Part shown: in pieces, positions 38,001 to 51,436 of the stretch | Layout: the number at the start of each line of letters is the position of its first letter | Numbering within the stretch: the first letter of the stretch is position 1 | From: Corynebacterium choanae | GTDB lineage: Bacteria; Actinomycetota; Actinomycetes; Mycobacteriales; Mycobacteriaceae | Length of the DNA: 64,000 bases | NCBI RefSeq assembly: GCF_003813965.1 | Contig: NZ_CP033896.1 | Coordinates: 124,001 to 188,000, forward strand | Direction: 5' to 3' | Notes under the pieces: generated by a model | Database searches by the model: none | Seen by the model: the letters and a program-made list of their open reading frames with translations, nothing else | Told to the model about the DNA's origin: nothing | Position numbers and translations under genes: made by a program

Positions 38001-39961
38001 CGGTTGATCCGTTTAACCGGAACCGGTTCTGGACTGCTGCCCGGCCATCGTCGACTGCCACCCCGCCGCTGCCCGGCAGCCGGGTGCGGCTCCCCGACGG
38101 GTCGCTGGCGTTTTCCACATTGGCCGATTTTGTGCCGTCGACTGCGGCGATCTTAGAGGCTGCCGCCGAGGCCTACGGCCGCGGCGGGCAGGTGACCGCA
38201 GTGGAAGAACACGCCACCTTGCCTGCCACCGGGGAGATCACCACGGTGGTGAAGAAAACCATCGGCGGGATCACCATTGCGATGTATCACGTCGACGGCG
38301 ATAATGTCACCTTCATCGCTGAAGCGTTCGCTGCCACCGGGGTGGCGCCAGCCACCCCGCAGCAGCCGGTACTCGACCCGGGTCTAGTCACCACCAATCC
38401 GGTGGCAACCGATGATGCTGCCGCCGCGCAGGCCACCGGCCTGCCGCCGGTGGAAACCCGGCTGTGGGATCCGGCCAGTGGGGAAACCGTCGAACAGCGA
38501 CTCATGGCGATCGTGTCGGAATCGATGGGCTATGAGGTGGAAGACCTGCCTGCTGAACTGCCGCTCATCGATCTGGGTCTTGATTCGCTGATGGGTATGC
38601 GGATTAAAAACCGGGTGGAAAATGATTTCCAAATCCCTCCGCTGCAAGTCCAAGCCCTGCGCGACGCCTCTGTGCAAGACGTCATCGCCATGGTGGAAGA
38701 GCTTGTCGCGCAAAGCCGCAACAGCAACACTACCGCTGGCAGTGACACGCAAACCGATTCCGTCGAACACACAGCACACACCACGACAACACCCCAGCCA
38801 ACGGTGCAGGGTACCTCCGAAACAACCGGCAAGCAGGACAGTGTGCCCACCGGCGACACTGACAAGCCCCGGGAACAGGCCGGTGTGGGGGTTGCGCCAC
38901 GCGATGCCAGCGAACGGATGGTGTTCGGCACTATTGCCAGTATTTTAGGTAAAGCACCTGCCGGGGTGACCTCCCCGCTGGGGGATCTGACTGACGAGCA
39001 GGCCACCACCATCGCGGAGCGGCTACAAGAACGCTCCGGCGCTACCATTACCGCTGCTGACGTGCGGGACGCCGAATCGATCGAACCGCTAGCCAACATT
39101 GTGCGGGAAAGCTTCGAAACCGAAGTGGAAGGCAACATTCGTGTGCTGCGGGAACGCCCCGCAGGATCGACGAAACCTGCCGTCTTCCTTTTCCATCCCG
39201 CTGGCGGCTCATCGGTGGTCTACCAGCCGTTGACCCGTCGTCTTCCCGATGATGTTCCCGTCTACGGGGTGGAACGCCTCGAAGGAACCATCGACGAACG
39301 CGCCAAAGCCTATCTCGAGGAAATCGAAACCTACGCCCAAGGACACCCGGTGGTACTTGGCGGCTGGTCACTCGGTGGGGCACTCGCCTTTGAGGTCGCC
39401 CACCAGCTAGTAGACAGCAATGTGGACGTCGCCTATATTGCGCTGCTTGATACGGTTCGGCCGAAAAACCCGGCACCAAATACCATGGAAGAAACCAAGG
39501 CGCGTTGGCAGCGTTATGCGGCCTTCGCGAAGAAAACCTACGGTTTGGAATTCCCGGTTCCCTACGAACTGCTGGAAACAGCCGGCGAAGACGCCCTGCT
39601 CGACATGCTGGAAACCTTCCTCGCCACCACCGATGCCAGCGAACACGGTTTATCAGCCGGTGTTCTTGAACACCAGCGGGCAAGCTTCGTCGATAATAGG
39701 CTGCTTGCGAAGCTCGACCTCAACCGCTGGCAGGATGTTACCGCGCCGGTCATTCTTTACCGTGCGGAACGCATGCACGACGGGGCAGTCGAACTTGAAC
39801 CGGCCTATGCTGATATTGCGGAAGACGGCGGCTGGAAAGCGCTTCGCCCCGAGCTTGAGATCGTCCACCTTAAGGGCGACCATCTTGCGGTTGTGGATGA
39901 ACCCGCCATCGGTATTGTCGGCGTGTCCTTAACTGAAAAGATCGCCACGATCGACACATAA
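35033..39961 (+). CDS. pks13: Polyketide synthase Pks13 (mycolate condensase)
   Basis: Condenses the FadD32-activated chain with a carboxylated acyl-CoA to form the alpha-alkyl beta-ketoacid precursor of corynomycolate and releases it onto trehalose. The domain order is complete. ACP1 has its Ser near residue 48 (LGLTSRDAV). The ketosynthase has Cys near 281 (VDTACSSSLVAIHHA) and His in EAHGTGTLLGDP and NFGHTEAAAGS. The acyltransferase has Ser near 734 (AMSMGEIAAAYACG). ACP2 has Ser near 1184 (LGLDSLMGMRIKNRVE). The thioesterase has Ser near 1445 (GGWSLGGALAFEVAHQ). At about 1642 residues it is the usual length. The AT elbow has Ala-Met where Gly-His or Gly-Gln is common. ATG at 35033 is preferred over the GTG at 35000. 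accD, normally next, lies 12 kb away beyond the CRISPR locus. Confidence 0.96.
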   Translation: MDSAHQQPADMSTSELRAWLSSWVAQATGLDEAAIDGDQPMQNLGLTSRDAVVLSGELEHLLGRQLDATVAYEHPSINALADFLTTAPSAGGVSKRMAAQSTVTRDSRPEQRDIAIVGMAARFPQAESLEQMWDTLVGGVSAVGDLPAGRWSEYANDAVMAEKLKETNVTGGYLSDIASFDAAFFGLSPLEAANMDPQQRIALELAWEALAHARLDAAALKGSNVGVYVGSTNNDYGMLISADPAEAHPYALTGTASSIIANRLSYFFDFTGPSVAVDTACSSSLVAIHHAVRALRDGDCDTALAGGVNILASPFVTTAFGELGVISPSGAIHAFSDDADGFVRGDGAGLLVLKRVADALADGDEIFAVIKGSAVNSDGRSNGITAPKPEAQVDVLARAYADAGVDPQQVDYVEAHGTGTLLGDPIEARALAEVLGSGRDAASPLLLGSAKTNFGHTEAAAGSAGLIKVVLAMQHGVLPPSLHYTAPNRHIDFDAGHLEVVEDPREWPQYSGKPVAGVSGFGFGGTNAHAVVSAFDPADYTDQPHTVQGQLAGGERVYVPISAHLPSRRADQATQLADQIAALVEAGKPVDVSAIARSLARANHGRSTAVVAATTPAELVTRLRALAEGKRVPEVITHDAPSARGVVFAYTGFGSQHRKMAKDLMAISPLFAARIEELNALIEFESGWSLTALIDDDGQTYNTETAQVAITAIQIALTDLLANLGAKPAAVTAMSMGEIAAAYACGGLSAEDAMRVACHRARLMGEGEASLSDDEQGAMAVVELSADQLAELVEQHPQCAGVEPAVYAGPGMTTVGGPRPAVVALGEILEEQGSFFRLLDVKGAGHTSMVEPLLGELAAESAGITPQPITVPLYSSVDEHRCYQPGETVHTVDYFLRCTRGQVYFTQACEDVFGDGFDCVVEISPNPVGLMGLAGTAFAVGKFDAQLLPSLKRKVDPRDSLTDVVTRMWAMGQPVQLRQLLGDGPLQDLPVDPFNRNRFWTAARPSSTATPPLPGSRVRLPDGSLAFSTLADFVPSTAAILEAAAEAYGRGGQVTAVEEHATLPATGEITTVVKKTIGGITIAMYHVDGDNVTFIAEAFAATGVAPATPQQPVLDPGLVTTNPVATDDAAAAQATGLPPVETRLWDPASGETVEQRLMAIVSESMGYEVEDLPAELPLIDLGLDSLMGMRIKNRVENDFQIPPLQVQALRDASVQDVIAMVEELVAQSRNSNTTAGSDTQTDSVEHTAHTTTTPQPTVQGTSETTGKQDSVPTGDTDKPREQAGVGVAPRDASERMVFGTIASILGKAPAGVTSPLGDLTDEQATTIAERLQERSGATITAADVRDAESIEPLANIVRESFETEVEGNIRVLRERPAGSTKPAVFLFHPAGGSSVVYQPLTRRLPDDVPVYGVERLEGTIDERAKAYLEEIETYAQGHPVVLGGWSLGGALAFEVAHQLVDSNVDVAYIALLDTVRPKNPAPNTMEETKARWQRYAAFAKKTYGLEFPVPYELLETAGEDALLDMLETFLATTDASEHGLSAGVLEHQRASFVDNRLLAKLDLNRWQDVTAPVILYRAERMHDGAVELEPAYADIAEDGGWKALRPELEIVHLKGDHLAVVDEPAIGIVGVSLTEKIATIDT

Positions 39962-39980
39962 CCACATAGAAACACAGCAA

Positions 39981-40014
39981 GCAGCTCCCAGTCCATCCGC
40001 TGGGAGCTGTTTGC
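39981..40014 (+). terminator. Terminator after pks13
   Basis: CAGCTCCCAG at 39982-39991 pairs perfectly with CTGGGAGCTG at 40000-40009 around an 8-nt loop, followed by TTTGC. It starts 20 bp after the stop. Confidence 0.75.
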
Positions 40015-40307
40015 ATATGATCGCAAAACCCCACATCCCCTAACGCACCACAACGCGACAATCGTGTTTCGACTAATAAGCGGCACTTGCAGCTGGTCCC
40101 GCGTACACACCAGATCACAAGGGAGCGTTGTAAAAAATACGATCGCGAAAGCCTCATGATGGAGATCGACCCCGGGCAGAGCATCGAGTAGCTGACAACC
40201 CCAAGTGCGATGTTCGAACAAGGGGAGCAGGAACGCCGGTTGGGTGATCCCTGTGTGTGAAGATGGTTTTGCGTCAGTTCCTTGACGATTGCTGCAAAGC
40301 ACCATGA

Positions 40308-40348
40308 CCCAAGTAGGGCACCACAACAATGGTGTTTCCCCACTTGGG
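40308..40348. other. Long imperfect hairpin
   Basis: CCCAAGTAGGGCACCAC (40308-40324) pairs with GTGTTTCCCCACTTGGG (40332-40348) at 14 of 17 positions around a 7-nt loop. On the minus strand the right arm, beginning with GTG at 40351, resembles a shortened third repeat about 31 nt after the second mini-array repeat. It could be an RNA structure or a third decayed repeat. Confidence 0.45.
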
Positions 40349-40382
40349 CACAGTGGCGCAGCGATCGCCCGTGGCGCGGATA

Positions 40383-40481
40383 AAAGAAACCCCGCTTGCG
40401 CGGGGATCACGCGTGGCGCGCTCGTTATGTCTCTAATACACAGGATCATCCCCAACGCATTGTTGAAAAGGTGGGGAACAC
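40383..40481 (-). CRISPR. Degenerate one-spacer mini-CRISPR, candidate crRNA-like cas autoregulator
   Basis: Read on the minus strand. Repeat 1 (40481 to 40443) starts GTGTTCCCC and ends GGGGATGATCC, both identical to the array repeat, but its central 8 nt are replaced by 19 nt. A 32-nt spacer follows (40442 to 40411), close to the array's 33. Repeat 2 (40410 to 40383) starts GTGATCCCCGCGCAAGCGGG and matches the array repeat at 19 of its first 21 positions. After GGGG it continues TTTCTTTTA, so hairpin plus T run could end transcription. The retained parts are those a single crRNA needs: the 5' handle from repeat 1 and the 3' hairpin from repeat 2. The spacer seed matches the cas3 promoter. 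I found no clear promoter for this RNA. Confidence 0.72.
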
Positions 40482-40536
40482 GGTGAAGCAACGAGCCTCC
40501 ACGCTGTACTGATCCTACCGAATAAGGACTAGATGT

Positions 40537-40755
40537 ATGGTGTTCGGGCTGCAAAGGCGCGCGTGGTCAGCGCTGAATCACCTACCGAGCTTGAGTCGGC
40601 ACCCGACCAGAGCCGGAGCCGGGAGGGGTGAATTGGGTCACTTTCGTCGTAGTTTCCTTGAATTTGAAGAACGGTCTAGTGATAATGAACGTGTAATAGA
40701 GACAAGCAACGGCATGGTCGCGCTCGACATGCAGCAAGCTCCCAAATCCAAATGA
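40537..40755 (+). CDS. Doubtful 72-codon ORF upstream of cas3
   Basis: ATG at 40537 has AAGGA 8 nt upstream, and the frame stops just before the cas3 ribosome-binding site. The product (MVFGLQRRAWSALNHLPSLS onwards) resembles nothing I know. The predicted cas promoter and the guide-match site lie inside its 3' half, which argues that it is a chance frame; it was also considered as a small regulator or toxin gene. Confidence 0.2.
   Translation: MVFGLQRRAWSALNHLPSLSRHPTRAGAGRGELGHFRRSFLEFEERSSDNERVIETSNGMVALDMQQAPKSK
40658..40686 (+). promoter_or_regulatory. Predicted promoter of the cas operon
   Basis: TTGAAT at 40658-40663 and GATAAT at 40681-40686 are separated by exactly 17 nt, a good sigma-70-type match. 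Transcription would start near 40692-40694, about 85 nt before the cas3 GTG. Confidence 0.65.
40688..40704 (+). promoter_or_regulatory. Putative Cascade target: seed match to the mini-CRISPR spacer, with PAM-like AAC
   Basis: GTGTAATAGAGACA at 40691-40704 matches the mini-spacer at 13 of 14 positions (spacer GTGTATTAGAGACA from 40441 downward on the minus strand). The only mismatch is position 6, which type I-E Cascade does not pair. AAC precedes the match at 40688-40690. Matching stops after position 14, which would allow binding but not favour cleavage. The site covers the predicted transcription start of cas3. Confidence 0.65.
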
Positions 40756-40777
40756 ACGCTGAAGGAGGTGTGAGATC

Positions 40778-43561
40778 GTGGTTGATGTGCAGTCGTTCTG
40801 GGCAAAGTTTGCCCCAGCCACAGGGCAGTATCTGTCCCTGTTTCAACACGGGATCGACACCGCAAATCTCATGCCTCATGTGGCCAGCGTATTTGTGTCG
40901 ACATCGACGATGCGTCAACTCGAGCAAGCCGTGGCACCTGCCTCGTTGCCGAAGCTGCTGACCACCCTGGGGTTTGCTCATGATTTAGGCAAAATTAGTC
41001 ACTTCCAAGCGAAGGTTCCAGAGCTTGCGGCCCGGCTCGACTCGTCGTATCGGCTCGGTCATGTCAGTCAAGCTGATCATCGTGATGCGCCGCATGCAGC
41101 AGTGAGCGCACTCAGTTTTACCGACTGGCTCAAGGCTCGGGCGACGGTGAAGCTTGGTCGACAAGCGCGCCGCGGTTGGGAGCAGATTCTCGGCGGACAT
41201 CACGGTGTCTTCCCGAATCCAGATCAGTTGTTAGCCACACGTCGAGTACTCGGTGTCCAGGCGCCGCAATGGGCGCAAGCACGGTTTGCTTACTTAGACG
41301 AGATGGCTGCCCATTTTGACATCACGCAAACTGATATCGATTCTTTCGCTCAGTTGACTTGGTCGCCTGACAAACAGGCTGTGCTGACGGGCTTGTTGAT
41401 TGCTACCGACTGGATTGCTTCCGACGAGCAGTTGTTCCCGTATGACAATCTGCCTGAACAGGATCGTTTGGAGCGGGCGCTTTCGCGAATCGATATTGGA
41501 CATCCGTGGCAACCGGAACGCTCAGCTGGATTAACCACGTTTGCAGACCAGTTCGACCTGCCCGCCACGGCAGAGATGAACGCGATGCAAACAGCCGTTG
41601 TGCAGATGGCATCTGATTGCGAAGCGCCGTCGTTGATCATTGTCGAGAGCGAGACTGGGAGCGGGAAAACAGAAGCTGCGTTGCTTGCCGCCCGGGAACT
41701 CGCGGCTAACCATGGCGCTAATGGCATCTTCTTTGCGCAACCTACCAGGGTGAATGCTGACGCAATGTTCCAGCGGGTGCGCGATTGGCTCGAGCGCAGT
41801 AATGCTTCATCAAGTTCAGTTGTGTCGATGCTGCTTGCGCACGGAAAGTCGGCGTTTAACGAGCAGTATGTCTCGCTCTTTCGGAACCGGTATTTCCAGG
41901 CGCAACCCCGGAGTATCTTTGATGAGCCAGGTACAGGCCTGCAGTCGGGTGGCATAACTATTGAAGCGCCCAAATGGGTGCGAGGACGCAAAACCGCGCT
42001 TTTGGGATCGGTGGTCGTAGGAACTATCGATCAGCTACTCTTTGCGGCTTTGAGTTCTAAACATCTCGTCCTGCGGCATCTTGGACTGGCAGGAAAAGTC
42101 GTGATCATCGATGAGGTGCATGCCGCCGATACCTGGATGAATACATATCTCACCAGAATGCTGTGGTGGCTGGGTGCGTATGGGGTCAATGTCATCGCCC
42201 TGTCGGCAACATTGCCGGTGGCGCAGCGCGACGCATTGTGCGGGGCTTATCTTGCTGGAGCTAAAGGGCTGCTTCAACAACCCACGGTGGCGACCCCGGT
42301 TCACGGCTATCCGCGGGTGACCAGTGTTTCCCGTGACTGTGATGTACCGAAAACTACAGTTATTCCACTGGCGGGCGCATCGAAAACCGTTTCCGTCAAA
42401 TTCTTCGTTGGTGACCAGGATGATATTGCTGAGCATGTCATTGAACTGTCGCGCATCGGTGGCTGTATCGGCGTCATTTGCGACACGGTTGGTCGGGCGC
42501 AGCAGTTATATAGCCGCATCACGACAGATTCACGGGTGCTTGCTGATGGCACTCCAGTGCTCTTGCTGCATTCCCGATTTCTTGCTGATCAACGAGCATC
42601 AATCGAGACAACGATTGTTCAGAAGCTCGGCAGGGACGCGACTCAGCGGCCGAAGCGGTTGCTTGTGATCGCCACGCAAATCCTGGAGCAGGGTCTGGAT
42701 TTAGACTTTGATGTGTTGGTCAGTGATCTTGCACCAACAGACCTTCTGCTGCAACGCATTGGTCGGCTGCATCGGCATCCCAGTAATCACGCCGTACGAC
42801 CGGAAGCCTTCCGCACCCCCACGATCTTCATTACTGGTTTGCTGACGCCTACTTCTGTTGCGCAGCCCGGTGACATTGCACGGGGGATCGTCCAGGTATA
42901 TCGCCGTTTGCCGCTTCTTCATACGCTAGCTACCTTGCACGAGCAGCTGAGCGCTAGCGGGGAAGTAGTGCAAATTCCAGAAGATGTTGAGCAGCTGATG
43001 TATCGAACCTATACAGCGCCGATCATTCCTGAAGGTTGGTCGAGCGCAGTCGAAAGAGCTTCCGCTGCGGAGCAGCGATTCGAGACTCGTCAAGCGATGG
43101 AATCGGCGAGATTCTGTATCGATCCACCCACTCAACCGCTTTCGACGTCGTTTAATCGACTCAATATCCCCGCGGATGAAGCAGCTGCAGGTGCACAAGT
43201 TCGCGACGCCGATGCCGCAGTCGAAGTGATCGTCGTGCGTCGACAGGCTGGCCGTATCTACGCCTTGGATCACGTCACTGAACTTGCAGATATTCCTCTC
43301 GATGAGGTGGCTGGCCTTACCGAGGAACACGCACGACGACTCGCTAGCTGCACTGTACGGCTGCCCGGCTGGATCGTCAGCGATGAGCTGCTTTACCAGC
43401 TCGAGTCTGATGGTCTGGAAAGTTGGCAGCAATCGGCGTGGTTGGCTGGTCAATTGCCCCTCATCCTCGATGAAGATTTCAGCAGCGTCCACGGTGCCAT
43501 CATGTTCCGATACGACTATGCGCTTGGGTTACTGGTGGAGCGGATCAATCATGATGAGTAA
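40778..43561 (+). CDS. cas3: CRISPR-associated helicase/nuclease Cas3 (type I-E)
   Basis: Recruited by Cascade to unwind and degrade target DNA. The N-terminal HD nuclease domain has GFAHDLGKISHFQ (HD pair near residue 68) and LGGHHGVFP. The helicase core follows with Walker A ESETGSGKTEAALLA (near 290), the DExH-type box VIIDEVHAADTWM (near 443), a SATLP motif, TQILEQGLDLDFD and motif VI LQRIGRLHRHP. The C-terminal domain completes the 927 residues. The GTG start at 40778 has GAAGGAGGTG 7 nt upstream, one of the strongest ribosome-binding sites in the window. It is the first gene of the cas operon; 144 bp separate it from cas8e. Confidence 0.96.
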   Translation: MVDVQSFWAKFAPATGQYLSLFQHGIDTANLMPHVASVFVSTSTMRQLEQAVAPASLPKLLTTLGFAHDLGKISHFQAKVPELAARLDSSYRLGHVSQADHRDAPHAAVSALSFTDWLKARATVKLGRQARRGWEQILGGHHGVFPNPDQLLATRRVLGVQAPQWAQARFAYLDEMAAHFDITQTDIDSFAQLTWSPDKQAVLTGLLIATDWIASDEQLFPYDNLPEQDRLERALSRIDIGHPWQPERSAGLTTFADQFDLPATAEMNAMQTAVVQMASDCEAPSLIIVESETGSGKTEAALLAARELAANHGANGIFFAQPTRVNADAMFQRVRDWLERSNASSSSVVSMLLAHGKSAFNEQYVSLFRNRYFQAQPRSIFDEPGTGLQSGGITIEAPKWVRGRKTALLGSVVVGTIDQLLFAALSSKHLVLRHLGLAGKVVIIDEVHAADTWMNTYLTRMLWWLGAYGVNVIALSATLPVAQRDALCGAYLAGAKGLLQQPTVATPVHGYPRVTSVSRDCDVPKTTVIPLAGASKTVSVKFFVGDQDDIAEHVIELSRIGGCIGVICDTVGRAQQLYSRITTDSRVLADGTPVLLLHSRFLADQRASIETTIVQKLGRDATQRPKRLLVIATQILEQGLDLDFDVLVSDLAPTDLLLQRIGRLHRHPSNHAVRPEAFRTPTIFITGLLTPTSVAQPGDIARGIVQVYRRLPLLHTLATLHEQLSASGEVVQIPEDVEQLMYRTYTAPIIPEGWSSAVERASAAEQRFETRQAMESARFCIDPPTQPLSTSFNRLNIPADEAAAGAQVRDADAAVEVIVVRRQAGRIYALDHVTELADIPLDEVAGLTEEHARRLASCTVRLPGWIVSDELLYQLESDGLESWQQSAWLAGQLPLILDEDFSSVHGAIMFRYDYALGLLVERINHDE

Positions 43562-43705: not shown

Positions 43706-45442
43706 ATGACGACGATGAATATCAGTGTTGAGCAAGCTGAACAACCCAAACCGTTCGACTTGCTTGAAAAACCGTGGATTCCTGTTCTTGATCTTGCAGG
43801 TCAAGAGCATGAAGTGAGCATCCGTACCCTTTTTGCGGATGCGCAGCGGTATCAACGATTGTCAGATCCATTAGAAACAGTAAACTTCGCGATTCTGCGA
43901 ATGCTGCTTGCAATTTTCTATCGGGCGTATGCGAAAGAGCAATATGCGGACTTAGATACTGCGTTGGATTTGTGGCAGCAATTATGGGACGGGGACAGTC
44001 TTCTCACCCCAGAGGTAGCGAACTACCTTGATCAACACGCAGATCGCTTTGATCTGCGGCATCCAACCCATCCGTTTGGGCAGGTCGCAACGTTGACGAC
44101 AGCTAAGGGTGAATACAAACCGGTTTCTATCATCTTGCCGGACGTCTCCGGGCTGTTTGCGTTGCGTAGCGCTGATTCACTCACCGCAGCCGAGGCTGCC
44201 AGGGCAGTAATCCACTGTCAGGCTTACGATTTTTCCGGGATCAAGTCAGGAGCAGTCGGTGACAAGCGGGTGAAGTCCGGACGCGGTTACCCTATCGGTA
44301 TCGGCTGGTCGGGGTGGCTTGGCGGCATCACATTGCACGGAAGCAACCTCAAGCAAACACTGTTGTTGAACTTTGTGGCACACCGCCCTGAATTGTTGTC
44401 CCGTGAAGCTATCGACCGTGATCTCCCCTATTGGGAGCTTGATGACCTTAGCGCCGCTGCCAGGGAAGAAGCCAGGTTCAATCGGGCAAACCCTGAACGC
44501 ACGCCGGCGTACGGACCGGTGGAGTTATTGTGCTGGCCGCAGCGCCGAATCCGCCTGTTCTGGGATGAGCAACAGGTTGAGGAGTTACTGATCTGCAACG
44601 GCGATCCGATTGGATACGCGGCTCAAGATGGTGTTGAGCTCATGACGGCTTGGCGGTACAGCGATCCTCAGTCGCGGAAGGCAAAGCGCTTGGTGTATAT
44701 GCCTAAAGCTGCGACTGCGGGACGTGCACTGTGGCGATCGCTGGAAGGAATCTTGGTCACCAGCAAGCCCACCAGCGTGAAAACGAACTTCGCGGATGGC
44801 GGGCTTACTCCAAGTGTGAAACCAGCAAAGACCATTGAGTGGTTTGGCACCCTGTGGCGGGAAGACTGCCTTGATGAACAGCAGCTAGATCAGGTGCGCG
44901 TCGCTGAGGTTTCCATGGAATATGGGGCGCAAAGCTCGAGCTTTAGCAATATCATCACCGATTCGTTGGCAATCGGGGCAAAGCTCTATGACCCTCAGCG
45001 TGCAGATCTGCGGGATGCTGCCCGCAATGCTGTCGAACTTGTCGATGAATGCTTTGAAGCGCTGAAGCGGTTGAAGAAAAACATTCACTTCGCAGCTTCC
45101 GGTGATTGGGAAGTCGACACAGCAGATGTGGAAGATGAGTTCTATCATCTGGTTGATTCCCGCTATCGCAGTTGGCTGTTGAGCCTTACCGACTTTGCCA
45201 CTGCTGAAGCGGCGCTCAACACCTGGAAAGACGAACTGCGCGACTTCGCCAGAGATATCGGCCGTCGGCAAATCAGTGGCTATGGACCCCACATTTGGGC
45301 TGGCCGCTGGTATGAGGCGCGAAAAACCAGGATTACTGCTGGTACAGCACTTCGTCGATACGAAAACATTATTGCATCATTGCTGGCATACTCCGCCGAC
45401 AATGAAGAAAGGTCAGGGATGGAAGATGTCCCAACAACCTAG
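43706..45442 (+). CDS. cas8e: Cascade large subunit Cas8e (Cse1/CasA)
   Basis: Large subunit of the type I-E Cascade, which reads the PAM and recruits Cas3. The N-terminus FDLLEKPWIPVLDLAGQE is the standard Cse1 opening (FNLLxxPWIPV). Downstream, RHPTHPFGQVATL, the Gly-rich loop IGIGWSGWLGGITLHG and HIWAGRWYEARKT near the C-terminus are as expected. 578 residues is somewhat longer than the E. coli protein (about 500). ATG at 43706 follows AAGGAGGGAG. It overlaps cse2 by 17 bp, indicating coupling. Confidence 0.95.
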   Translation: MTTMNISVEQAEQPKPFDLLEKPWIPVLDLAGQEHEVSIRTLFADAQRYQRLSDPLETVNFAILRMLLAIFYRAYAKEQYADLDTALDLWQQLWDGDSLLTPEVANYLDQHADRFDLRHPTHPFGQVATLTTAKGEYKPVSIILPDVSGLFALRSADSLTAAEAARAVIHCQAYDFSGIKSGAVGDKRVKSGRGYPIGIGWSGWLGGITLHGSNLKQTLLLNFVAHRPELLSREAIDRDLPYWELDDLSAAAREEARFNRANPERTPAYGPVELLCWPQRRIRLFWDEQQVEELLICNGDPIGYAAQDGVELMTAWRYSDPQSRKAKRLVYMPKAATAGRALWRSLEGILVTSKPTSVKTNFADGGLTPSVKPAKTIEWFGTLWREDCLDEQQLDQVRVAEVSMEYGAQSSSFSNIITDSLAIGAKLYDPQRADLRDAARNAVELVDECFEALKRLKKNIHFAASGDWEVDTADVEDEFYHLVDSRYRSWLLSLTDFATAEAALNTWKDELRDFARDIGRRQISGYGPHIWAGRWYEARKTRITAGTALRRYENIIASLLAYSADNEERSGMEDVPTT

Positions 45443-46040
45443 CAACGCGGCCGCATTGGTGAAAAACCATGTTGGAAGGCGCGTTTCCCAACTCCAGGCG
45501 GAGCTACTCGCTAATTCTTCTACCGCTCGCGCGAAGCTTGCCAATATGCGTCGATCGCAATCGTTGGTTGAGCTACAGCCGACCGTTGCCAACATCGCTT
45601 TCGCCGGGATACCTGAACAGCTAGTCGGTGTTCGCGACGAACTCAATTTTGCTGAGCGATCGATTGTGGCCGCGATAAATCTCTACGCGCGCCACCAACA
45701 ATCGCAGGTACAGCCCATGCACGTTGCAGATATTCGCTTCGGGCAAGCGGTCCACACCTTAGCGGTGAGAAGCAATCTTTCAGATTTCGAAACCGGCCCC
45801 TTGGTTCGCCGATTCAATACTGCAGTGACTTCGCAATCGATGAACGAGCTGATGTGGCATTGCAAAGGGCTGATTAGCCAGATGCGCGCGGAACAAGTGC
45901 CGCTGGATTATGGCTTGCTTGCTGCCGATTTTTACCGATTCCATTTTGAATCTGGACAACAACAAGTGCGCCTCGCTTGGTCGCGCGACATGTATGCGCG
46001 TGCCCTTCCCACAGTTGACGCTGAACAACCAGCGCCGTAA
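45426..46040 (+). CDS. cse2: Cascade small subunit Cse2 (CasB, Cas11)
   Basis: A mostly helical, basic small subunit present in two copies in Cascade that stabilises the crRNA-target duplex and the displaced strand. The open frame begins at 45195 inside cas8e, but the real start is ATG 45426 (MSQQPSNAAALVKNHVGRRV), with AGGG 7 nt upstream. Conserved features are RAKLANMRRS near the N-terminus (FARLRR-like), ERSIVAAINLYARHQQ and FYRFHFESGQQQVRLAWSRDMY at the C-terminus. The 204-residue length and the position between cas8e and cas7 fit the family. Confidence 0.92.
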   Translation: MSQQPSNAAALVKNHVGRRVSQLQAELLANSSTARAKLANMRRSQSLVELQPTVANIAFAGIPEQLVGVRDELNFAERSIVAAINLYARHQQSQVQPMHVADIRFGQAVHTLAVRSNLSDFETGPLVRRFNTAVTSQSMNELMWHCKGLISQMRAEQVPLDYGLLAADFYRFHFESGQQQVRLAWSRDMYARALPTVDAEQPAP

Positions 46041-46072
46041 CGAAAAAACACTTACTCGAAGGAGTGATCATT

Positions 46073-47173
46073 ATGACCACGTATGTGGACTTCCATATCC
46101 TGCAGCTTTTGCCACCATCGAACATCAACCGGGACGACACCGGCTCGCCGAAGTCGGCACGATTTGGTGGGGTAGAGCGGCATCGCGTATCCAGCCAAGC
46201 TTGGAAGCGAGCAACACGGCAGGAATTCGGCCGCTATCTTGACGAATCGCGGCTCGGTATTCGTACCAAGCAAGGGCCGAAGATTATCGCCGAACGCATC
46301 TGTGAGCTGCGGGAAGACTGCACCGCCGAAGATGCCTTTGAAGCCGCGAAAAAGATCGTGGCGCTCGGTGGAATCAAACTGGACAAGAAGAACCCGGATC
46401 AAACGGGCTATCTCATGTTTTATGCCCGTGAAGAGATTAATCATCTCGCCGAACTCGCGATCCAGCTGCTTGACGGTGAGGACGTGAAAAAGGCTCAGGT
46501 CCGTAAAGCCATCGATAATGCCCGCGCCGTGGATATTGCGCTGTTCGGGCGGATGATCGCGGACGCCCCGGAGCTCAACGTCGATGCTTCCTGTCAGGTG
46601 AAGCATGCGCTGTCGGTGCATCGCGCAACACCCGATTTTGATTACTACACTGCGATTGATGATGAGCTCGGTGCGGACGAGTCTGGTGCGGGCATGATCG
46701 GCACGATTGAGTTCGTATCCTCGGTACTCTACCGGTATGCCACAGTGTCGGTTGACAGCCTCGAGCAGAATTTAGGTGATCCCGCTGCGTCAGCTGAGGC
46801 GATTCGTGCTTTTGCTCAGGCGTTCACCTTGAGTATGCCGACCGGGAAGATGAATACCTTTGCCAATCGCACCCGTCCAGATTTCGTCTTGGTCGAAATC
46901 CGCGAAGACCAGCCAGTCGAGTTGGGTAGCTGCTTTGAAGATGCCGTTCCCGCCGATGGAAATACGATGCGGAACGCGGCACTGCGGCTGGCTCAGTATG
47001 CGATCGATGGCGATGCCCAGTTTGGCACGGCACCGGTGAAGTCGTTCTACATGGCACTTGATCGAGCTACCACTGGTGATTTGGAAGCAGTACTCGCCGA
47101 GCGGTCGGAAAAACTGAGTTTCCCGGAGCTCGTCGAGCGAATTGGTGCACATGTGTACCAGCCGGAGGCCTAA
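46073..47173 (+). CDS. cas7: Cascade backbone subunit Cas7e (Cse4/CasC)
   Basis: Forms the six-copy helical backbone that holds the crRNA and inserts thumbs that flip every sixth base of the duplex. The opening YVDFHILQLLPPSNINRDDTG is the family signature, followed by PKSARFGGVERHRVSSQAWK. GTIEFVSSVLYRYATVSVD and FTLSMPTGKMNTFANRTRP are typical core segments. ATG at 46073 (MTTYVDFH) with AAGGAG 8 nt upstream is preferred to the upstream GTG at 46064. 366 residues, as expected (E. coli about 363). Confidence 0.96.
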   Translation: MTTYVDFHILQLLPPSNINRDDTGSPKSARFGGVERHRVSSQAWKRATRQEFGRYLDESRLGIRTKQGPKIIAERICELREDCTAEDAFEAAKKIVALGGIKLDKKNPDQTGYLMFYAREEINHLAELAIQLLDGEDVKKAQVRKAIDNARAVDIALFGRMIADAPELNVDASCQVKHALSVHRATPDFDYYTAIDDELGADESGAGMIGTIEFVSSVLYRYATVSVDSLEQNLGDPAASAEAIRAFAQAFTLSMPTGKMNTFANRTRPDFVLVEIREDQPVELGSCFEDAVPADGNTMRNAALRLAQYAIDGDAQFGTAPVKSFYMALDRATTGDLEAVLAERSEKLSFPELVERIGAHVYQPEA

Positions 47174-47174
47174 T

Positions 47175-47876
47175 ATGTCAGCCACATTGCTACTCAAGCT
47201 TGATGCACCAATGCAAGCGTGGGGTGCGGAGAGTCGTTTCGTGCGGCGTCAAACCCGCACTGAACCAACGAAAAGTGGCGTGGTGGGTTTGCTTGCAGCG
47301 GCGTTGGGGCGCTCCCGGGAGGCAGATATTTCCGATCTCGCAGCATTGCGGTTCGGAGTGCGAACCGACCAGATTGGCGCCATCGAGCGCTGTTTCCAAA
47401 CCGAGGTCGACTGGCGAAGCGGTAAAGCAATGCCGCTCACGGAGCGGTTTTATCTCTCCGACTATAAATTTGTCGCCGGTGTGGAAGGGCCACGCGAGCA
47501 AATCGAGCTGCTTGCTCATGCGGTGAATCATCCGGTGTATCCGCTCTTTCTTGGACGGCGATCCTGTCCGCCAGGGAGCCGCATTGGCCTGCCAGTGGTG
47601 GAACATGATCTGCGCACCGCTCTGGCTACGACCCCGTGGACTGCTGCCCTGTGGTATCGCAAAAAACAGCGAACCTCGGTGCGGTTGACCATCGCGCTCG
47701 ATGCGCAACCTGGTGCTGCCGAAGAATACTGTCGTGATCAACCGGTCAGTTTTCAACAGTCCAATCGTGTGTACCAGCTGCGTGGTATCACGCGCGAAGA
47801 AATTACGGTTGAAAATCCGGACGGATACACGCCAGCACAATCCCATGATCCCTTCGCGCTGCTAGGAGAACAATAA
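47175..47876 (+). CDS. cas5: Cascade subunit Cas5e (CasD)
   Basis: Caps the 5' handle of the crRNA in Cascade. The N-terminus TLLLKLDAPMQAWGAESRF with RRQTRTEPTKSGVVGLLAAA is the RAMP-family signature of Cas5e. FYLSDYKFVAGVEGP and PVYPLFLGRRSCPPG follow. ATG at 47175 lies 1 bp after the cas7 stop with GGAGG upstream; the frame open from 47142 overlaps cas7 and is not used. Its stop overlaps the start of cas6e (TAATG). 233 residues. Confidence 0.94.
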   Translation: MSATLLLKLDAPMQAWGAESRFVRRQTRTEPTKSGVVGLLAAALGRSREADISDLAALRFGVRTDQIGAIERCFQTEVDWRSGKAMPLTERFYLSDYKFVAGVEGPREQIELLAHAVNHPVYPLFLGRRSCPPGSRIGLPVVEHDLRTALATTPWTAALWYRKKQRTSVRLTIALDAQPGAAEEYCRDQPVSFQQSNRVYQLRGITREEITVENPDGYTPAQSHDPFALLGEQ

Positions 47877-48529
47877 TGTATTTTTCAGTAGTCGAGCTCA
47901 ATCGACGACGGCGCGGTACACAGATGCTGCTCAGTTCTCCTGGAAAGCTGCATGGTGCCGTCATGGATGCGTTTCCGCGAGAAGCGATTGCGGGCAGGCG
48001 AGTGCTTTGGCGCGTCGATCACCTATCTGATCGCACTCTGCTCTACGTGGTGAGCCCGGTACGTCCGTCATTTGAACATATCCAGGAACAAGCTGGATGG
48101 CAGCACGCGGAGAGCTGGAAAATACGTTCCTACCAGCCGTTGCTCGATAGCTTGCAGGTTGGGAATCGCTACGCGTTTAGGCTGGCGGCTAATCCCACCC
48201 ACACGGTGACGTTCCCGGACGGACGAAAAAAGAAGATTGGGCATGTAACCGCCAAACAGCAATTGCAATGGTTGCTTGATCGCGCGGAGACCATCGGTGT
48301 GAAGTTCCCGCAGTTAGAGGAATCCGTTCCGGCAGTTCGAGTCATTCGCCGAGATCATCACCAATTCAGGAAACAACACCACAAGGTCACGTTGCGAACT
48401 GCAGTGTTTGAAGGCGCCTTGGAAGTTTGTGATCCAGATCGGTTACGTCAAGCACTCACAACCGGTATCGGACGTGGGAAGGCGTATGGTGCCGGGCTGC
48501 TCACCTTGGCGCCACTTGCTGATAGCTGA
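47876..48529 (+). CDS. cas6e: crRNA-processing endoribonuclease Cas6e (CasE)
   Basis: Cleaves the CRISPR transcript at the base of each repeat hairpin and stays bound to the 3' end of the crRNA. The protein has two ferredoxin-like folds. The N-terminus MYFSVVELNRRRRGTQ is typical, and the catalytic His falls at residue 26 (GKLHGAVMDAFP), the known Cas6e position. The C-terminal GIGRGKAYGAGLLTL is the Gly-rich loop of the family. It begins within the cas5 stop and ends within the cas1 start (TGATG), so translation is coupled across three genes. This enzyme would also have to process the mini-CRISPR RNA. Confidence 0.95.
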   Translation: MYFSVVELNRRRRGTQMLLSSPGKLHGAVMDAFPREAIAGRRVLWRVDHLSDRTLLYVVSPVRPSFEHIQEQAGWQHAESWKIRSYQPLLDSLQVGNRYAFRLAANPTHTVTFPDGRKKKIGHVTAKQQLQWLLDRAETIGVKFPQLEESVPAVRVIRRDHHQFRKQHHKVTLRTAVFEGALEVCDPDRLRQALTTGIGRGKAYGAGLLTLAPLADS

Positions 48530-49473
48530 TGGCCAATATCAATATCTCACCTAAGGATTTGCTCCGTGTGGAAGATCGAATTTCCTTCGTCTATTTGGAG
48601 CATTGCACTATCGGTCGGGATGGGGGCGCGCTGACTGCTACCGATGACAGTGGGGTGACATATGTCCCAGTGTCAGCAGTCAGCGTGATCCTCTTAGGAC
48701 CCGGTACACGGGTTACGCACCCGGCGATGACGGTGATCGGTGAATCTGGCTGTGCGGTGATGTGGGTAGGGGAATCGGGAACTCGTTATTACGCCCATGG
48801 GCGTGGTGTCGCTCGATCCTCTCGCCTTCTTATTCAGCAAGCTCGCTTGTGCAGTAACCGGAATCAACGACTTGCTGTAGCAAGAGCGATGTACGCCATG
48901 CGATTCCCTGAGGAAGATACTTCGTCGTTGACCATGCAGCAACTACGTGGGAAAGAAGGCGCGCGGGTAAGGAAAATCTATCGGCAATGCGCTACCGAGT
49001 ACGACGTTGAGTGGCATGGTAGAGAATACGATCCACAAGACTTTGCCGGCGGTTCAATTGTGAACCAGGCGTTGTCGGCTGCCCATTGCTGTCTATACGG
49101 GCTGGTGCATGCAGTGATTGTTGGATTGGGTTGCGCGCCCGGGCTGGGATTCGTCCATTGCGGTCATGATCGAAGCTTTGTGTATGACATCGCTGATCTC
49201 TACAAAGCTCAGGTCACAATCCCCGTGGCATTTCGCATCGCTAAGCAGTTCGAGGATGTAATGGTGAACGAATCGGACCTCGGGCGTGCAGTGCGTTACG
49301 AATTACGCGATCAATTCCGGGATCGGCGTCTGGCCGAACAGATCGTCCACGACATCAAAACCTTGCTGTTAGCGGACGAAGTCTCGTCGGAAGACATTGC
49401 CACCGATAAAAACACTCTATGGGATGGTAAAACCGGCAGTATTGCCGGTGGTGTTAATTACGGGGACGGTTAA
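48529..49473 (+). CDS. cas1: CRISPR integrase Cas1e
   Basis: With Cas2 it integrates new spacers at the leader end of the array. The catalytic metal ligands are visible as Glu in QQLRGKEGARVRK, His in GLGFVHCGHD and Asp in SFVYDIADLYKAQ. The N-terminal strand domain begins RISFVYLEHCTIGRDGGAL. 314 residues is the usual length. ATG at 48529 overlaps the cas6e stop. The frame ends about 10 bp before cas2 begins. Confidence 0.96.
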   Translation: MANINISPKDLLRVEDRISFVYLEHCTIGRDGGALTATDDSGVTYVPVSAVSVILLGPGTRVTHPAMTVIGESGCAVMWVGESGTRYYAHGRGVARSSRLLIQQARLCSNRNQRLAVARAMYAMRFPEEDTSSLTMQQLRGKEGARVRKIYRQCATEYDVEWHGREYDPQDFAGGSIVNQALSAAHCCLYGLVHAVIVGLGCAPGLGFVHCGHDRSFVYDIADLYKAQVTIPVAFRIAKQFEDVMVNESDLGRAVRYELRDQFRDRRLAEQIVHDIKTLLLADEVSSEDIATDKNTLWDGKTGSIAGGVNYGDG

Positions 49474-49483
49474 GAGACAGCAG

Positions 49484-49837
49484 ATGATGACGTTGGTTGT
49501 TACAGCATGTCCTCAACGCTTGCGAGGTTTCCTTACCCGATGGTTGATGGAGATCGAACCCGGAGTCTATGTCGGTAAGGTGAACGCTCGGATTCGTGAT
49601 GCTTTGTGGGATATCACCGTTGCAGAAATCGCAGGTGGGCGAGCCATCTTGGTGTATCCCGACTCCCGGAAGGAAGCGGGATTTGAGGTGCGAGTTCATC
49701 GCACTACTTGGGAGGTGGTCGACTACGAGGGGCTAGCGCTTATTCGACGTCCGAGTACAACGAAGAAACAAATAATGCGGTCGGGTTGGTCGAAAGCCTC
49801 CAAAATGCGAAGAGCACGGCGAAACCGGAGTAAGTGA
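49484..49837 (+). CDS. cas2: CRISPR integrase subunit Cas2e
   Basis: Dimeric structural core of the Cas1-Cas2 integrase. The start MMTLVVTACPQRLRGFLTRW with IEPGVYVGKVNARIRDALW is characteristic of type I-E Cas2. ATG at 49484 (or the adjacent 49487) has AAGAGA just upstream; the frame open from 49397 overlaps cas1. The protein is about 117 residues, roughly 20 longer than E. coli Cas2, because of a strongly basic C-terminal tail (SKASKMRRARRNRSK) that may contact DNA. It ends only 44 bp before the first repeat. Confidence 0.95.
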   Translation: MMTLVVTACPQRLRGFLTRWLMEIEPGVYVGKVNARIRDALWDITVAEIAGGRAILVYPDSRKEAGFEVRVHRTTWEVVDYEGLALIRRPSTTKKQIMRSGWSKASKMRRARRNRSK

Positions 49838-49881: not shown

Positions 49882-51436
49882 GTGTTCCCCGCGCGAGCGG
49901 GGATGATCCCTGTCCGTATTTTCACGCAGCCGACGGCCACGGGTGTTCCCCGCGCGAGCGGGGATGATCCCCCGGTGGACTACATCAAGTTGCGGCTCGC
50001 CAAGGTGTTCCCCGCGCGAGCGGGGATGATCCACGTATCCCCCGCCTTACGATCACGAACACCTAGTGTTCCCCGCGCGAGCGGGGATGATCCCAGCAGG
50101 GAATCAGCTTTCCGCCGCCCCCGTTTGTGTTCCCCGCGCGAGCGGGGATGATCCTGAACCAGGCGACGTTAGAGATTGTGGAAAATGGTGTTCCCCGCGC
50201 GAGCGGGGATGATCCCGACAAGTGCAAAAGCACCTCGTTGCCGTTGTTGTGTTCCCCGCGCGAGCGGGGATGATCCCTGCTCACGCCCCCACCATCCAGG
50301 AATCGACGGGTGTTCCCCGCGCGAGCGGGGATGATCCCCATGAGAGAAAAGCATATCGAACAAGCCCTCAGTGTTCCCCGCGCGAGCGGGGATGATCCCC
50401 GCAAATATGGCTTCTTACCGCCCTCGGCAACGTGTTCCCCGCGCGAGCGGGGATGATCCCATCAACCTTGTCACCATCCAGGCTATTCATTTGTGTTCCC
50501 CGCGCGAGCGGGGATGATCCCGGCACGTCCGAGATCATCTCATCAGACACTTTGGTGTTCCCCGCGCGAGCGGGGATGATCCCACCGCCCCCTCATCGCG
50601 GGGGAACATTTTAAAGTGTTCCCCGCGCGAGCGGGAATGATCCGTACCCGCTTGTCGCGCCGCTCAAGCTCACGGCGTGTTCCCCGCGCGAGCGGGGATG
50701 ATCCCGGCGCGTCCGAGATCATCTCGTCCGACACTTTGTGTTCCCCGAGCGAGCGGGGATGATCCCAGCCGCCACAACCCCAGCACCGTCATCACCAGGT
50801 GTTCCCCGCGCGAGCGGGGATGATCCCACCCGATCCGAATACTCCATACCAAAACATCCGTGTTCCCCGCGCGAGCGGGGATGATCCCGTCGATGATTTT
50901 GAGCACAATCTGGTGACGCTGTGTTCCCCGCGCGAGCGGGGATGATCCGCTGGTAAAGCGGCGCTGATCGCTACAGCCACCGTGTTCCCCGCGCGAGCGG
51001 GGATGATCCGGAACCACCCGCCATATCCATCGAAGAACTGGAGTGTTCCCCGCGCGAGCGGGGATGATCCCAAGCCCCTGAGCTGTACGAAGCCGGACGC
51101 GGCGTGTTCCCCGCGCGAGCGGGGATGATCCCTCGCCAGCGGTTTGGAGACCACGCTCATGCTGGTGTTCCCCGCGCGAGCGTGGATGATCCGCACACAG
51201 ATTGGATAACCGCAGTAGCGGGCAAGTGTTCCCCGCGCGAGCGGGGATGATCCCACTTCTGGCACCTGGTCCAGGCCGACCAAACCGTGTTCCCCGCGCG
51301 AGCGGGGATGATCCCTCTGAAGTCACCTGCCGCTGGATACTCAACGTGTGTTCCCCGCGCGAGCGGGGATGATCCCCACGTGGTGGTGGGGGGTGACGTG
51401 CCTGGTGGGTGTTCCCCGCGCGAGCGGGGATGATCC
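49882..51436 (+). CRISPR. Type I-E CRISPR array, 26 repeats and 25 spacers
   Basis: The 28-nt repeat starts GTGTTCCCCGCGCGAGCGGG and ends GATGATCC; including the following base, usually C, it is the 29-nt repeat standard for type I-E. Repeats begin every 61 bp (twice 62), giving 33-34-nt spacers by the 28-nt count. Internal variants are repeat 13 (50616, G to A in the right stem arm), repeat 15 (50738, C to A after CCCCG) and repeat 22 (51165, G to T). The CCCCGC/GCGGGG stem is the Cas6e hairpin. Orientation follows the cas operon, so newest spacers are nearest cas2. Spacers 11 (50521-50554) and 14 (50705-50737) are nearly identical. None obviously matches this window. Confidence 0.97.

Follow-up and report, generated by a model that had tools for sequence, protein, structure and literature searches.

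A degenerate one-spacer mini-CRISPR upstream of cas3 in Corynebacterium choanae as a probable CreR-type guide gene

Upstream of the type I-E cas operon of Corynebacterium choanae, the minus strand carries a unit of one spacer between two degenerate copies of the organism's own array repeat (40390-40481 of the window, by which we mean the whole 64,000-nucleotide stretch of DNA analyzed). The first 14 positions of this spacer, apart from position 6, match a PAM-flanked site directly 3' of the predicted cas3 promoter, and this site occurs once in the genome. Guide and target change together across the genus, and their pairing follows a Cascade-like pattern. Judged from sequence, the unit is in all likelihood a guide gene of the CreR type, whose products regulate cas genes. 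Because the guide matches the promoter region of its own operon only, the CRISPR-Cas system most likely employs it to damp its own activity.

A mini-CRISPR unit between degenerate repeats

The main array comprises 26 copies of a 28-nt repeat (GTGTTCCCCGCGCGAGCGGGGATGATCC) with a period of 61 or 62 nt, and it accompanies a complete type I-E gene set (Table 1). Cse1, Cse2, Cas7, Cas5, Cas6, Cas1 and Cas2 all pass the curated thresholds set for type I-E models. Cas3 clears the thresholds for its helicase and HD domains but, at 299 bits, not the 569 bits required by PRK09694, the model of the full-length protein. The base at position 29 is C in 20 of the 25 array units counted, which agrees with the PAM AAC of the target described below, provided that this base is PAM-derived, as repeat base 29 is in E. 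coli. Within one array spacer (50583-50615), CCCCCTCATCGCGGGGG and, after it, AACATTTT make up a palindrome that looks like the stem of a CRISPR repeat, as though it had been formed by, or taken from, repeat-like DNA.

The initial annotation had described two degenerate repeat copies in the same orientation, 32 nt apart on the minus strand, and this arrangement is borne out: the gap spans 40411-40442 and consists of position 29 and a 31-nt spacer, compared with 33 nt in most array units. As that annotation also stated, repeat 1 perfectly retains the first 9 bases of the array repeat (GTGTTCCCC, 40481-40473) and its last 11 (GGGGATGATCC, 40453-40443), although these halves are separated by 19 nt rather than by 8, and repeat 2 agrees with the array repeat at 19 of its first 21 positions (40410-40390). 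The 19-nt middle of repeat 1, the handle-less repeat 2 and the gap of 32 rather than 33 nt place the unit outside the definition of a canonical array. In 300 first-order Markov simulations of the intergenic region the best 21-nt repeat match was 16 of 21, and none of 3000 such simulations of the intergenic region yielded the two halves of repeat 1. The likeness to the repeat is thus above chance.

The 5' handle ATGATCC(T) of a guide would come from repeat 1 and its 3' hairpin from repeat 2; read in the manner of a crRNA, this guide has the handle AUGAUCCU and then continues with GUGUAUUAGAGACA. The short stem of repeat 1 closes a loop of 19 nt, and its folding is not better than that of shuffled sequences (z 0.50), making its cleavage by Cas6e uncertain. 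The repeat-2 stem and the tail TTTCTTTTAT behind it form a predicted terminator-like site, a feature that the initial annotation had not included; two such sites were found where shuffling leads one to expect 0.8. Promoter prediction in the intergenic region returned no promoter-like site on the minus strand for the unit itself, and a search of Rfam across 39960-40800 gave no matches up to E = 1.

Table 1. Positions in the window of the mini-CRISPR unit, its target and the associated CRISPR-Cas locus
Feature	Position	Strand	Basis or remark
Predicted cas3 promoter, TTGAAT-17-GATAAT	40658..40686	+	consensus match
Target PAM, AAC	40688..40690	+	
Target protospacer, matching spacer positions 1-5 and 7-14	40691..40704	+	
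Terminator-like site, repeat-2 stem with tail TTTCTTTTAT	40380..40405	-	prediction
Repeat 2, GTGATCCCCGCGCAAGCGGGG, lacking the 3' handle	40390..40410	-	19/21 match to first 21 nt of repeat
Spacer, 31 nt, GTGTATTAGAGACATAACGAGCGCGCCACGC	40411..40441	-	pairing region: first 14 positions
Position 29 (T), joining repeat 1 to the pairing part of the spacer	40442	-	
Repeat 1, degenerate, 39 nt (GTGTTCCCC, 19-nt middle, GGGGATGATCC)	40443..40481	-	halves exact to array repeat
cas3, first gene 3' of the target	40778..43561	+	profile match
cse1, cse2, cas7, cas5, cas6, cas1, cas2	43706..49837	+	NCBIfam
Main CRISPR array, 26 repeats	49882..51436	+	repeat listing

The spacer matches the predicted cas3 promoter region

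The only mismatch between spacer and target within positions 1-14 falls at position 6, the position that type I Cascade leaves unpaired. The combined PAM and seed pattern (AANGTGTANTAGAG) has a single occurrence in the whole genome (2,986,773 bases), which is the target site. The site lies immediately 3' of the only promoter-like site in the intergenic region, but shuffling produces 0.5 such sites where one was found, so that the cas3 promoter is a prediction only. Transcription of cas3 would be expected to start near 40693, within the target. The initial annotation had likened the unit to crRNA-like regulators, of the CreA type and related Cas-regulating RNAs, without naming a target; a PAM-flanked seed match in the cas3 promoter region, with its mismatch at position 6 and its uniqueness in the genome, lends support to that comparison.

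Among relatives, only 8 of 33 have a TANNNT or NATAAT box whose end is at most 6 nt from the PAM, a raw count taken without a background, and no promoter box with a constant spacing to the PAM was found. Positions -9 to -3 in relatives are 76-91% A+T.

A 13-codon open reading frame (MVALDMQQAPKSK) occupies 40713-40754 in the predicted cas3 leader and ends a longer plus-strand reading frame. This leader bears on a second reading, in which the system is a CreTA module: the guide would be an antitoxin, CreA, and the targeted promoter would drive a toxic small RNA, CreT, within the cas3 leader. The anatomy of the guide and its pairing rule are those given for CreA in PMC8501985, where a known CreT reading frame has six codons, and the 13-codon frame is at least a candidate for its counterpart. 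However, it has no paired rare codons when the sequence is read directly, and the target lies 87 nt from the start of cas3 with no plus-strand terminator-like site between them. Under the targeted promoter there is no separate toxin RNA gene, only the leader frame, although small RNA toxins can go unseen in sequence. Furthermore, some relatives have their target in the gap between cas3 and cse1, which fits control of cas genes. We consider the CreTA reading very unlikely and favor a guide that regulates the cas operon.

Guide and target coevolve across the genus

A Cas3 match is present in 102 of 242 genomes of the genus, and 90 loci were examined; the 12 Cas3-bearing genomes left out comprise nine weak matches (E 2e-30 to 3e-37) and three that are broken or partial. 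The region upstream of cas3 was searched in all 90 loci and the cas3-cse1 side in 30 plus 14. Units were defined by structure alone, namely a handle, a spacer of 9-37 nt and a repeat-2 hairpin without a handle behind it. From 84 raw units we dropped 20, on account of handle form or as array units or array ends; one of the 20, a plus-strand unit of locus L055, was dropped by name, being the opposite-strand reading of that locus's own unit. A unit so defined is present in 64 of the 90 loci. Among the 26 others, two have a unit on other evidence: L064 and L174, which lie outside the structural filter or its region yet pair at 9 and 10 positions.

Pairing was scored over ten seed positions (1-5 and 7-11), with a PAM of AAN required, in the guide's own region and in the regions of all other genomes. 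The best score in the own region was 10 for 46 units, 9 for 12, 8 for three, 7 for one and 6 for two, whereas 70 of 7596 comparisons in the cross-genome control scored at least 9; 42 of these 70 involve loci with a seed of their own that agrees with the tested one in at least 8 of the ten positions, and 28 do not. We rejected the view that the three units with the lowest own scores (L012, L014 and L017) are orphans, given that their best sites were found in the cas3-cse1 gap of their own loci, with scores of 9, 10 and 10, respectively. For L014 and L017 this is the only exact site in the genome. L012 has no exact site and three with one mismatch, and its match is weak by itself because only one of the three is in the gap; a control with the guide read backward gave 10. 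Altogether, 61 of the 64 seeds match their own locus at 9 or 10 of the ten positions, the site either preceding cas3 or lying between cas3 and cse1. Three units reach only 8 of 10; L031 and L057 have an own score of 8, and L051 has no target anywhere in its genome when one mismatch is allowed. In L004, L005 and L026 the unit itself sits between cas3 and cse1.

The initial annotation had proposed that conservation of the repeat-like elements, the spacer and the spacing in related genomes would be telling. The repeat halves, the position of the unit and the pairing of seed and target are indeed kept across the genus, and the seed sequence itself varies by species; the spacing is not constant, since 44 of 64 spacers are about 12 nt shorter.

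Fourteen relatives (L039, L042, L054, L062, L066, L068, L074, L077 and six others) carry a divergent full array on the same strand, 57-86 nt beyond repeat 2 when counted to the repeat core, and this proximity means that unit and array might share a transcript. Such neighbors, together with the degenerate repeats, are what one would expect if the unit were a functionless remnant of a decayed array. A remnant, however, would not hold a seed-target match in 61 of 64 loci while its seed varies by species and positions 6 and 12 move almost freely; decay would not produce matched seeds and targets amid changing seeds, and we regard this explanation as extremely improbable.

It could also be proposed that the repeat-2 hairpin merely ends antisense transcription and that the seed match is secondary, as the terminator-like site on the minus strand would allow. 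Yet fewer than five T residues occur in the 10 nt behind repeat 2 in 27 of the 50 stand-alone units, and relatives lacking the T-run in this way keep the handle, the spacer and the target. We therefore give a terminator function by itself almost no credence and retain the regulatory guide as the preferred reading. As a mark distinguishing stand-alone units, the T-run was rejected as not significant (Fisher p 0.13).

Pairing follows the period of Cascade

Across 58 guide-target pairs, the positions selected by the score match almost always (58, 57, 57, 58 and 55 pairs at positions 1-5; 58, 58, 55, 56 and 56 at positions 7-11), whereas those that the score does not select match in 21 pairs at position 6, in 13 at position 12, and in 53, 41, 30, 26 and 11 at positions 13-17. 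The 58 pairs contain 41 different seeds by their first five bases, and collapsing the set to these 41 preserves the same picture. The PAM, for which AA was required, is AAC in 47 pairs, AAT in seven, AAG in three and AAA in one. Positions 6 and 12 appear nearly unconstrained, and these dips read as the six-base period of Cascade pairing. The fading of pairing beyond about position 16 fits binding without cutting.

Two classes of spacer length

The 64 spacers are 19 nt (four units), 20 nt (38), 21 nt (two), 31 nt (eight) or 32 nt (12) long, forming a short class (44 of 64) and a long class (20 of 64) with none between. The empty interval from 21 to 31 nt rests on the handle filter, because the 20 dropped raw units (9-34 nt) include lengths of 22, 23, 25, 26 and 27 nt. 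On a Cas3 tree covering 60 of the 64 units, length class requires seven changes, at least five of them forced by well supported branches, although this is a quick tree that carries a long-branch warning. None of the 14 units adjoining a divergent array belongs to the long class, compared with 20 of the 50 stand-alone units, but the 14 genomes are related.

The 12-nt step between the classes equals two Cas7 footprints. On the strength of this equality we put forward, as a possibility that falls somewhat short of being probable, that the genus carries coevolving natural regulatory guides with quantized spacer length and that evolution may time and again produce a reduced Cascade that only binds and is dedicated to autorepression. 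Shortening type I-E spacers by 6 or 12 nt leaves Cas3 able to cut, though markedly more slowly (PMC7296934); in type I-B, repression without cutting is described for spacers of 24 nt or less, with 20 nt weaker than 21 (PMC10989794), and for spacers of 26 nt or less (PMC10551041). The 19-21 nt class of relatives suggests a likeness to these engineered, truncated type I-B crRNAs, which are, however, synthetic and fully complementary, whereas pairing of the 31-nt spacer in the window is limited by mismatch. That spacer belongs to the long class, and cutting here would accordingly be avoided by mismatch alone.

Related units in other genomes

A scan of named genomes with a single Cas3 protein as the query returned no relative, and a second scan with a Cas3 alignment as the query worked. 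The second scan gave Corynebacterium records with the same units, and an exact ten-position pair is present in 8 of 13 Corynebacterium loci, including C. hylobatis (L091), C. macginleyi (L112), C. tuberculostearicum (L125) and C. ulceribovis (L122). Many rows of the scan are chance matches, and by eye we judged that five of the 67 loci of other organisms look like real units: those of an Actinomycetales MAG (L109), Buchananella hordeovulneris (L117), Amycolatopsis antarctica (L145), Rothia mucilaginosa (L146) and Lactiplantibacillus modestisalitolerans (L170). All five have a matching target near cas3, and their spacers, likewise estimated by eye, are again about 20 or 32 nt long.

A proposed autorepressing guide of the CreR type

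We infer transcription, processing, loading, repression and feedback as follows. The minus strand would be transcribed through repeat 1, the spacer and repeat 2, ending at the repeat-2 hairpin. Cas6e would cleave repeat 1 to leave the 5' handle, with the hairpin as the 3' end, and the resulting guide RNA would enter Cascade and direct it to the cas3 promoter region through the PAM AAC and the 14-nt imperfect seed. Bound Cascade would block initiation of the cas operon while forming an R-loop too short to license cutting by Cas3. A shortage of Cascade, its occupation by crRNAs or its inhibition would relieve this repression, and more Cas protein would be made.

The primary description of CreR, cas-regulating RNAs, is reportedly that of Liu et al. 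2023 in Cell Host Microbe. CreR has already been reported for type I-E, and the kind is thus known. Autorepression through partial complementarity to the promoter is stated for types I-B, I-E and V-A (PMC13131331), CreR guides are described as sensing changes in crRNA abundance (PMC12948488), and sensing of both crRNA abundance and anti-CRISPRs is proposed (PMC13131331, PMC12948488). The unit in the window resembles CreR, as portrayed there, in being a mini-CRISPR whose guide partly matches a cas promoter; its own autorepression is a prediction from sequence. Close to a cas operon, it places one spacer between two sequences that resemble repeats, and it has a PAM, partial complementarity to a cas promoter that is predicted, and, by a criterion of our own, a seed-target pair kept in relatives (61/64 vs 70/7596). 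With CreA (PMC8501985, PMC9458426) it shares two divergent degenerate repeats, one spacer and a PAM beside which positions 1-5 and 7-11 pair (PMC8501985); CreA, however, represses a toxin RNA, whereas the target in the window leads straight into cas3. Considering these features together, we conclude that the mini-CRISPR is real, very probably functional and of a known kind.

We found no report of a corynebacterial CreR-type guide in the literature searched, which did not include the primary CreR paper, and a paper on C. striatum type I-E systems (PMC9944170) contains none of the terms 'degenerate', 'upstream of cas3', 'intergenic' and 'repeat sequence'. As far as we are aware, what would be new is the target and the fact that it is unique, along with coevolution throughout the genus and the division of spacers into two length classes.

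These findings yield a simple rule by which cas autorepressors can be located in loci whose repeats have degenerated too far for array calling. They make regulation of the type I-E operon in Corynebacterium directly testable, and the two classes of spacer length may illustrate, in nature, two routes to binding that stops short of cutting. Finally, with guide and promoter changing together throughout the genus and positions 6 and 12, which Cascade leaves unpaired, drifting nearly freely, these units would document in natural sequences the way in which Cascade reads a seed.
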